A stretch of DNA of 64,000 nt from Gimesia sp. GTDB lineage: Bacteria; Planctomycetota; Planctomycetia; Planctomycetales; Planctomycetaceae. The first letter of the stretch is position 1, and every line of letters starts with the position of its first letter. The notes under the pieces were generated by a model. It did no database searches, had not been told where the DNA came from, and saw only the letters and a list, made by a program, of their open reading frames with translations. The position numbers and the translations under genes were made by a program. Location of the stretch: positions 64,380 through 128,379 of the forward strand of contig PAJV01000010.1 in NCBI GenBank assembly GCA_002706765.1. The letters are read 5' to 3'. Below are positions 52,114 through 53,937 of the stretch, in pieces.

Positions 52114-53637
52114 TCAGTTTTCCAGTTTTGCAGCTGCTTTGTTGATGGCCTGCAGATAGGCTTTGGCACTGGATTCGATGATGTCTGTACTGACGCTGCG
52201 GCCAGTGAATAATTCACCATTGATGCGAACTTCGACGCGTACCTCTCCCTGGGCATCCTTACCGCTGGAAACACTGCCGACGTGGTACTGGTCCAGTACA
52301 GCAGTAATGCCTGAGATGCGTTCCAGTGCCCTGAAGACGGCATCAACAGGGCCATCTCCGGTAGCTGCATCACAGTGGATTTTGCCTGTTTCATCTGACA
52401 GTTCAATCGTCGCGGTCGCGATGGTGCCGGTTCCGGCGGAAGTGTGGAAGCGGGCAATTTTCCATTTCTCCGGTGCATCGGTGACCTGGTTCTCGATTAA
52501 GGCGACAATGTCGGAATCGTAGATTTCCTTTTTCTTGTCAGCCAGCGTGATAAACTCATTGAAGATCCGCTCAAATGTTTCATCATCCAGGGTATGGCCC
52601 AGGGTCTGAATTCGATCGCGGAATGCATGACGGCCACTGTGTTTGCCGAGGACCAGGTTAGTGCCTACATAACCAACATCTGCAGGAGACATGATTTCAT
52701 AGGTTGTGCGTTCCTGCAACATGCCGTGCTGATGAATGCCTGCTTCGTGTGCAAAAGCGTTTCTCCCCACGATCGCTTTGTTGCGTTGTACCGACATCCC
52801 GGTGACTGTCGAGACCAGATGGCTGATCGGATACAGGCGTTTTGTATTGATATTAGTGTGTACGCCGTAATAGTCCGCGCGGGTTTTCAACGCCATTACG
52901 ACTTCTTCCAGTGCGCAGTTTCCAGCACGTTCCCCCAGGCCATTGATCGTACATTCCACCTGGCGGGCGCCCGCTTCCACAGCGGCGAGGCTGTTTGCGA
53001 CGGCGAGTCCCAGGTCATTGTGACAATGCGTGCTGATGATGGCCTGCTCTATGTTTGAAACATTTTTTTTCAACGTGGTGATGACATCATGGAAATGGGC
53101 GGGAGTCGCATAACCGACGGTGTCGGGAATATTGACGGTGCTGGCTCCGGCTTCGATGGCGCGTTCCACCACTTCACAGAGGAAATCTTTCTCGGTTCGG
53201 GCAGCGTCCTCTGGTGAGAATTCGATATCCGGGCAGTAGTCTCGGGCTCGCTTGACCATTTCGACCGCCGTCTCCACGATCTGTTCTTTCGTCATTTTGA
53301 GTTTATGCTCCATGTGGATGGAACTGGTTGCGAGGAAGACGTGAATCCGCGACTGCTTTGCCTCTTTTAATGCTACCCAGGCCCGGTCGATATCGTCTTT
53401 TCGGCAGCGGGCCAGAGCGCAGATGGTCGTCTGATCGCCAAATTCATTTGCAATTTTGCGAACGGATTCAAAATCGCCGGGAGAGGCAATCGGGAAGCCT
53501 GCCTCAATGATATCGACCCCCAGTTTGACAAGTTCCCGGGCGACTTTCATCTTTTCCGAAGTGGTCATACTGCAGCCAGGTGACTGCTCACCGTCTCTCA
53601 ACGTGGTGTCGAATATCTTTACTGTATCATTGGACAT
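52114..53637 (-). CDS. leuA: 2-isopropylmalate synthase
   Basis: 507 residues, normal length. It joins acetyl-CoA to 2-oxoisovalerate, the first committed step of leucine synthesis. The catalytic signature is DTTLRDGEQSPG (10-21). STHCHNDLGLAVANSLAAVEAGARQVECTINGLGERAGN holds the HxH metal site, and AGIHQHG is also intact. The C-terminal regulatory LeuA dimer domain (about 390-507) is present, so feedback inhibition by leucine is expected. The ribosome site GGAG is about seven bases before the ATG. Upstream is a complete leucine attenuator. The gene for a small membrane protein follows after 30 bases. Confidence 0.97.
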   Translation of the reverse strand: MSNDTVKIFDTTLRDGEQSPGCSMTTSEKMKVARELVKLGVDIIEAGFPIASPGDFESVRKIANEFGDQTTICALARCRKDDIDRAWVALKEAKQSRIHVFLATSSIHMEHKLKMTKEQIVETAVEMVKRARDYCPDIEFSPEDAARTEKDFLCEVVERAIEAGASTVNIPDTVGYATPAHFHDVITTLKKNVSNIEQAIISTHCHNDLGLAVANSLAAVEAGARQVECTINGLGERAGNCALEEVVMALKTRADYYGVHTNINTKRLYPISHLVSTVTGMSVQRNKAIVGRNAFAHEAGIHQHGMLQERTTYEIMSPADVGYVGTNLVLGKHSGRHAFRDRIQTLGHTLDDETFERIFNEFITLADKKKEIYDSDIVALIENQVTDAPEKWKIARFHTSAGTGTIATATIELSDETGKIHCDAATGDGPVDAVFRALERISGITAVLDQYHVGSVSSGKDAQGEVRVEVRINGELFTGRSVSTDIIESSAKAYLQAINKAAAKLEN

Positions 53638-53717
53638 TGGGTTTCTCCGCGAGTCAATTTCCGCTCCCGATCAGGGAGCTAATGAGAGACCAGAATAGTA
53701 CCAGCAGGCAAAATAAA

Positions 53718-53748
53718 AAACCCTGAGGCCGATCTGGTCTCAGGGTTT
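53718..53748 (-). terminator. Attenuator terminator upstream of leuA
   Basis: On the minus strand AAACCCTGAG (53748-53739) pairs with CTCAGGGTTT (53727-53718); two more G-C pairs follow past an A/C mismatch, and the 3' arm runs into TTTTTTATTTT. It lies 80 bases before the leuA start, so termination here would prevent leuA expression. Its 5' arm (53748-53736) also pairs with the antiterminator arm at 53789-53779. Confidence 0.9.
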
Positions 53749-53778
53749 CGCTGTTTTTTGATTAACAATCGTACAAAG

Positions 53779-53789
53779 AACCTAAGACC
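53779..53789 (-). promoter_or_regulatory. Antiterminator arm of the leuA attenuator
   Basis: On the minus strand GGTCTTAGGTT (53789-53779) pairs with AACCCTGAGACC (53747-53736) as eleven base pairs with one wobble and one bulged base. This excludes the terminator stem. It also pairs with the leader-peptide segment AACCTGAGCC (53826-53817), the expected protector arm. Confidence 0.75.
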
Positions 53790-53793
53790 TGGC

Positions 53794-53847
53794 TTAAAGA
53801 AGCAGGTTTCGTAGCAGGCTCAGGTTTAGTAGATTGTGAATGTGCAT
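53794..53847 (-). CDS. leuA leader peptide
   Basis: A 17-codon frame on the minus strand: MHIHNLLNLSLLRNLLL, then TAA. Eight of the 17 residues are leucine, read by CTA, CTG and CTT codons. The TAA is five bases before the antiterminator arm. This is the classical design of a leader peptide whose stalled ribosome senses scarcity of charged tRNA-Leu: stalling on the leucine codons frees the antiterminator arm, which opens the terminator and lets transcription reach leuA. No strong Shine-Dalgarno precedes the ATG, only an A-rich stretch. It is too short to be called by usual gene-finders. Confidence 0.88.
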   Translation of the reverse strand: MHIHNLLNLSLLRNLLL

Positions 53848-53908
53848 TTTATTTTGTTTTTTCAACTGGTTTAAACTGGACAGTCTTAGACTGCCTTACC
53901 GCTCTGAC

Positions 53909-53937
53909 AATTTACCTGCTCAATCGACCATGGTCAA
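53909..53937 (-). promoter_or_regulatory. Candidate promoter of the leuA leader
   Basis: On the minus strand TTGACC (53937-53932), a 17-base spacer and TAAATT (53914-53909). The predicted start is near 53902, giving a 55-base leader before the peptide ATG. Confidence 0.6.

Follow-up and report, generated by a model that had tools for sequence, protein, structure and literature searches.

A leucine-codon leader with the anatomy of an attenuator upstream of leuA in planctomycetes

Upstream of leuA in a planctomycete of the genus Gimesia, we find a short leucine-rich reading frame followed by RNA segments that can pair in alternative ways and that end in an intrinsic terminator, an arrangement that very probably acts as a ribosome-mediated transcription attenuator coupling leuA to the supply of charged tRNA-Leu. 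An earlier note on the 64,000-nucleotide stretch of DNA analysed here (the window) had proposed a complete leucine attenuator at this place, and its parts can indeed be read: the leader and the 1:2, 2:3 and 3:4 pairings are all present in the window, and the leader and the 2:3 and 3:4 pairings are conserved in relatives. If this reading is correct, planctomycetes, whose cell biology is known to be unusual, would join the phyla with reported ribosome-mediated attenuation, and their transcription and translation would be close enough for a ribosome to steer RNA polymerase. The analysis also yields a covariance model and, in a stretch that is easily missed by annotation, a testable candidate leucine sensor for leuA.

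Anatomy of the leader region

The gene downstream of the leader, at 52114-53637 on the minus strand, encodes a 2-isopropylmalate synthase of 507 aa, and its earlier naming as leuA is borne out by two NCBIfam equivalog models, NF002086 (780.7 bits, cut-off 532) and TIGR00973 (738.5 bits, cut-off 598.7). It is 91% identical to the leuA of an uncultured Gimesia sp. (L036), and GGAG at 53648-53645 (minus strand) is its likely Shine-Dalgarno sequence. The same genome carries two further leuA-like genes, L002 and L003, at 41% and 30% identity; L003 is a citramalate synthase (TIGR00977 above cut-off), and L002 is closest to leuA, yet below every cut-off listed. Elsewhere in the sample (G430:C241), two equal-scoring leuA genes lie in head-to-head orientation with about 0.5 kb between them; this may be an assembly artefact.

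The leader frame, MHIHNLLNLSLLRNLLL-stop, occupies 53794-53847 on the minus strand, with its ATG at 53847 and its TAA ending at 53794. Read directly from 53847 to 53794, it holds the 17 codons with eight leucines that had been described before (CTA, CTA, CTG, CTG, CTA, CTG, CTT and CTT); by eye, no obvious Shine-Dalgarno sequence precedes its ATG in the window. Four bases separate the TAA from the GG of segment 2, rather than the five given in the earlier note. This TAA is private to the window's genome: the 14 other distinct sequences of the genus are without it, and their leader frame, which closes with …QARS or …PARS, is ended by a TAG inside segment 2 (53782-53784, minus strand). The window retains that TAG triplet, which is not reached because of the private TAA. 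From either stop, a ribosome footprint of 12 nt, the size given in a passage of PMC4833913, would by geometry reach over segment 2.

Segment 1 (53813-53826, minus strand), which contains the pairing stretch 53817-53826 pointed out earlier, pairs with segment 2 (CCAGGTCTTAGGTT, about 53779-53792, minus strand) in a helix of -15.7 kcal/mol that also appears in the global MFE. Segment 2 can alternatively pair with segment 3 (GAAACCCTGAGACC, 53736-53749, minus strand) to form an antiterminator, at -17.9 kcal/mol in the window, and segment 3 can pair with segment 4, which together with the U-tract of the intrinsic terminator takes up 53710-53731 on the minus strand; the 3:4 hairpin (-18.7 kcal/mol) is followed by TTTTTATTTT. 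An RNAfold-based terminator finder reports the window hairpin on the minus strand; a pattern-based scan lists it on the plus strand only, the minus-strand version having an interior mismatch. The region upstream of leuA in the window folds with z = -3.98, that is, 4 standard deviations better than shuffles.

A putative promoter at 53909-53937 (minus strand) consists of a -35 box TTGACC (53937-53932), 17 nt and a -10 box TAAATT (53914-53909), and transcription would start about 55 nt upstream of the leader frame. The boxes that had been called promoter-like are present, with 9 of 12 consensus matches; because the consensus scan gave two promoter-like sites against 0.6 in shuffles, they are weak evidence when taken alone. 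GGGTTGACC and a TARATT-like -10 recur in five of six genus rows. Conservation in the genus alignment is low from the promoter-like region to the leader ATG and high from the ATG on. At one locus (L012), a different sequence replaces the TTGACC promoter-like region of the genus, and the leader onward is still conserved.

Distribution, codon choice and covariation among planctomycetes

We drew leuA loci from 150 genomes of the order, 138 genomes of the phylum and 80 named contigs. The order set gave a leuA match in 143 of 150 genomes, of which 133 were used and 10, at contig edges or split, were left out; the phylum set gave a match in 58 of 138, with 53 used and 5 left out. The 255 leuA loci used became 254 once placed (L068 was dropped) and 220 when only regions distinct by their last 250 nt were kept, and among the distinct regions 217 were long enough for a count of upstream ORFs and 219 for a 700-nt search for leader and terminator. 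A later, partly overlapping Pirellulales-type order set was scored for the leader only: 103 of 108 genomes were matched, 93 used and 10 left out, and, minus L367, 73 of the remaining 92 genomes have the leader.

When upstream ORFs with at least five Leu in ten codons are counted as leucine-rich, 170 of 217 distinct leuA upstream regions contain one; dinucleotide shuffles yield 16.4 and the opposite strand 10. For other amino acids the counts lie close to those of the controls (Ala 10, with 4.4 shuffled and 9 reverse; Arg 16, with 17.6 shuffled). The 700-nt search found a leader in 175 of 219 regions and a terminator-like hairpin after 169 of the 175 leaders, and when 40 real regions were sampled, 39 had a terminator after the leader, versus 12 of 40 mononucleotide (composition) shuffles. 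Given these two comparisons with shuffled sequence, a chance origin of the leuA leader is excluded.

By a stricter rule, leader and terminator occur together in 162 of 219 regions, a set that includes doubtful rows such as L083 and L098. The element is found in all 15 loci of the genus, in 85 of 93 of the family, in 3 of 3 others of the same class, in 54 of 69 on named contigs and in 5 of 39 from other classes, so that by this rule it is missing in 34 of 39 other-class loci and 8 of 93 family loci. This extends the earlier reading: the element is present in many Planctomycetales and Pirellulales loci, with Thalassoglobus, Fuerstiella, Planctomicrobium, Rhodopirellula, Lacipirellula and Adhaeretor among those that the rule picks out, and also in a Paludisphaera, a genus of the Isosphaerales. 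Of the 57 loci that do not pass the rule, the covariance model recovers 17 at E below 1e-4, the match in L066 covering the terminator part only. Scanned against the window's own genome (7.9 Mb), it gives one strong full-length match, at leuA, the others being partial or weak; at E 0.001 some match appears in 105 of 294 phylum genomes, many of these matches being partial, and the figure is not a count of attenuators. Two loci from other classes, L249 and L244, have upstream ORFs ending LLGLLLLRP before leuA with a weak terminator or none, possibly a different form of leuA control.

Beyond leuA, the scope of the search was ilvB and trpE in 13 planctomycete genomes, where upstream ORFs, the sole basis of judgement, gave no convincing regulatory leader; within 500 nt upstream of the profile match, whose start codon was unchecked, ilvB has two Leu-rich upstream ORFs and trpE three with a Trp pair. 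We claim no general use of attenuation by planctomycetes.

Leucine in the leader follows the reading frame: its share of the last 15 codons is 42% in the leader's frame versus 7% and 3% in the other two, and it is commonest 6 to 11 codons before the leader stop. Codon choice is biased as well: CUA, which the window's genes use least of all Leu codons, accounts for 54 of the 116 Leu codons in the leaders of the genus (47%), compared with 29 of 1661 (1.7%) in window ORFs and 0 of 30 in leuA. Most Leu columns of the genus leaders stay Leu despite codon change (for example CTG/CTA/CTT), a few rows losing one to Arg, Gln, Thr, Ser or Phe, and apart from Leu the leader peptides differ widely between genera.

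The alignment with related planctomycetes for which the earlier note had called has now been made, and it finds the Leu codons and both hairpins conserved with compensatory changes. Exchanging arms between species, in a test that covers all 162 loci, takes the 3:4 pairing from -22.2 native to -15.7 swapped and the 2:3 pairing from -19.3 to -15.1; the effect on 1:2 is weaker (-17.0 native, -14.5 swapped, p 5e-4). Shuffles in this test were mononucleotide. Pair-by-pair counts come from alignment A1, the 55 rows of which were hand-picked from 122 non-redundant sequences after viewing the 2:3 pairings of about a fifth of the 162. In A1, 93.2% of terminator cells are paired and 10 of 12 pairs show double changes, counts that lean upward because having a terminator was a condition for entry into the 162; the antiterminator has 77.3% paired cells and double changes in 11 of 14 pairs, counts that may be flattered because A1 was hand-picked and is enriched for a stop inside segment 2 (53 of 55 rows versus 107 of 162 overall). 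Both paired-cell percentages were reached by 0 of 500 shuffles, and sliding the partner lowers both; for 2:3, one of five measures, further pair types, is less clear, being reached by 14 of 500 shuffles. Column 124 co-varies with both of its partners, columns 55 and 143, as expected of an arm shared by both structures. RNAalifold alone predicts the terminator. Judged from these sequences, the terminator and antiterminator structures are both selected.

Proposed switch, rival readings and a neighbouring tRNA gene

We envision the following course of events. With ample Leu-tRNA, the ribosome would pass the Leu codons to the stop and place its footprint over segment 2; with segment 2 covered, 3:4 would pair and RNA polymerase would terminate before leuA. 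When Leu-tRNA is scarce, the ribosome would stall in the Leu run, where the rare CUA is over-represented, and the free segment 2 would pair with nascent segment 3, pre-empting the terminator and allowing leuA to be transcribed, so that the gene would respond to leucine. Without translation, 1:2 would form in the window and the terminator would be the default.

Geometry and folding models agree with much of this course and qualify some of it. In 161 of 162 loci, half or more of segment 2 would lie under the 12-nt footprint of a ribosome standing at the stop codon; this codon is within segment 2 in 107 loci, 5' of the segment in 43 and past it in 12. When the window RNA is modelled as ending with segment 3, the predicted upstream pairing of the segment 3 core is 0.83 for a ribosome halfway along the Leu run, 0.26 for one that has reached the stop and 0.07 if there is none; across the 162 loci, the same early-RNA model reaches 0.5 upstream pairing of segment 3 in 159 when the ribosome is stalled, in 16 when it is at the stop and in 111 when there is no ribosome. 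Because these 111 loci show early 2:3 pairing without a ribosome, the default-off state is clear in the window and not general. Once segment 4 is present, the modelled mean pairing of segment 3 with it is 0.77 stalled, 0.95 at the stop and 0.92 with no ribosome over the 162 loci, and 3:4 pairing in the window is 0.89, 0.91 and 0.91, respectively, the terminator prevailing there by 0.89 to 0.02 even with a stalled ribosome. Since the terminator wins as soon as segment 4 exists, the modelled switch must be kinetic, a choice of the kind that is assumed for classical attenuators.

Downstream of the terminator, the genus has a feature that goes beyond the earlier reading, a genus-specific fifth segment (TCTGGTCTC, 53686-53694, minus strand) complementary to segment 3. 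Segment 5 is invariant in 15 aligned genus sequences, over which the 3:5 duplex scores -17.6 native versus -10.9 swapped; the 143 sequences outside the genus give no signal of 3:5 complementarity. The stretch after the terminator from about 53704 to 53679, CTGGTACTATTCTGGTCTCTCA, is near-invariant and genus-specific, with one variable position over 53704-53683 in the 15 genus sequences, and it may be an internal promoter, an anti-Shine-Dalgarno sequence or a fifth arm; as an internal promoter, it could bypass the attenuator. A small hairpin at 53660-53680 lies just upstream of the leuA Shine-Dalgarno sequence, and by eye its arms vary together in the genus; in several predicted folds it is enclosed by the pairing of the near-invariant stretch with the Shine-Dalgarno region.

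Such a promoter could in principle dispense with attenuation altogether, the hairpin being a constitutive terminator or 5'-UTR structure and leuA being driven mainly from TGGTACTAT at 53703-53695, which resembles an extended -10. The near-invariance of this stretch in the genus speaks for that account, which is nonetheless very unlikely in our estimation, as it leaves the Leu codons and the 2:3 covariation unexplained and as the leader, the antiterminator and the terminator extend far beyond the genus, to which 3:5 complementarity is limited. Segment 5 bears on another account too, since several predicted folds in the genus pair it partly with the leuA Shine-Dalgarno region, as might suit a structured leader before leuA like the LEU element of Actinobacteria, in which a pseudoknot and a base stem between the Leu run and the Shine-Dalgarno sequence would act translationally or through a protein. 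The LEU element, as set out in part of PMC1262725, has a leucine leader ORF before leuA as well, but its description there names no terminator, and here a U-tailed, covarying one is present. We tried the base stem and rejected it: over 162 loci the Leu run pairs with the Shine-Dalgarno sequence no better natively (-13.06) than swapped (-13.09, p 0.71), and an element of this type is even less probable than control from an internal promoter.

Least probable of the three is an arrest peptide, in which a specific nascent chain, and not Leu-tRNA supply, would stall the ribosome. A short leader ORF before a structural switch would look alike in that case; the non-Leu residues, however, are very different from one genus to another, and the Leu codons chosen favour the rare CUA. 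The attenuator stays the reading that we hold with high confidence.

Pirellulales add an observation about the far side of the gene: a tRNA-Leu(UAA) gene often follows leuA on the same strand, lying 7-417 nt downstream in 22 loci (L072, L076, L082, L091-L094, L100-L102, L104, L106, L108, L121, L321, L328, L333, L338, L345, L352, L355 and L400). We compared 97 Pirellulales-type and related loci with a leader and known downstream sequence, and the leader contains UUA at all 22 loci that have the tRNA no more than 600 nt away versus 18 of the 75 that do not (Fisher p 3e-11, which ignores kinship). The 92 order genomes have the tRNA within 600 nt in 9, with UUA in 9 of 9 such leaders versus 16 of 64 without the tRNA, 3 of these 64 having less than 600 nt of sequence after leuA. 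In a FastTree phylogeny of leuA, six independent pairs on well-supported branches gave on average three that agree, none that oppose and three without difference (median sign-test p 0.25), too few pairs for power in a test that included L367, whose tRNA is an artefact of empty downstream sequence. Of the 22 loci, 4 have a terminator-like hairpin between leuA and the tRNA; of the 75 tRNA-less loci, 14 have one in the first 150 nt past leuA.

A search for tRNA-Leu(UAA) in 11 genomes returned that tRNA as the best match in 10; in G431, a CAA gene outranks the UAA copy next to leuA, and the eight other lower matches scanned are CAA or UAG isoacceptors. The gene is on another contig in G437 and is not beside leuA in the window's genome. 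Because tRNA-Leu(UAA) lies after leuA and reads the UUA codons of the leader, the Pirellulales attenuator might also be a homeostat for this tRNA, low charging or amount of which would raise transcription of its own gene; we offer this tentatively, as a possibility that we doubt more than we believe.

Relation to known systems

A leader-peptide attenuator in planctomycetes does not appear among the literature matches listed, and this agrees with the earlier note's statement that it knew of no described case. PMC4833913 tallies short ORFs close to planctomycete genes, and its main text contains neither leuA nor leucine as a word. The authors of PMC2965389 (2010) state that, as far as they knew, no leader-peptide system had been shown outside Proteobacteria and Actinobacteria before their own case in Firmicutes. 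Searches of Rfam at the gathering score returned no match in the window and only tRNAs in 20 related loci, and its T-box and riboswitch families gave no match; a permissive scan gave three weak matches, with Phe_leader as the sole leader family (16 bits versus a cut-off of 55, E 4.1). The mechanism is a classical one, and the planctomycete element is absent from Rfam.

Enterobacteria have a leu attenuator (leuL) that combines a leader of rare CUA Leu codons, 1:2, 2:3 and 3:4 alternatives and a U-tailed terminator with leuA downstream. The planctomycete element is like leuL (Rfam Leu_leader) in all of these features and differs from it in phylum, in having no Rfam leader match at the gathering score and in the position of its stop, which falls inside segment 2 in 107 of 162 loci. 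With the LEU element, as described in the relevant part of PMC1262725, it has a Leu-codon leader ORF before leuA in common; the LEU element has a pseudoknot and a Shine-Dalgarno base stem, whereas here the base stem is not found and a terminator is present. The hisS/hisZ leader peptide of Firmicutes, on which we draw from part of PMC2965389, is likewise outside Proteobacteria and Actinobacteria and concerns another amino acid, gene and phylum. Finally, the classical attenuators of actinobacterial trp and leuS, as presented in part of PMC1262725, follow the same ribosome-mediated logic, with regulatory codons, an antiterminator and a terminator, which the planctomycete element would apply at leuA.
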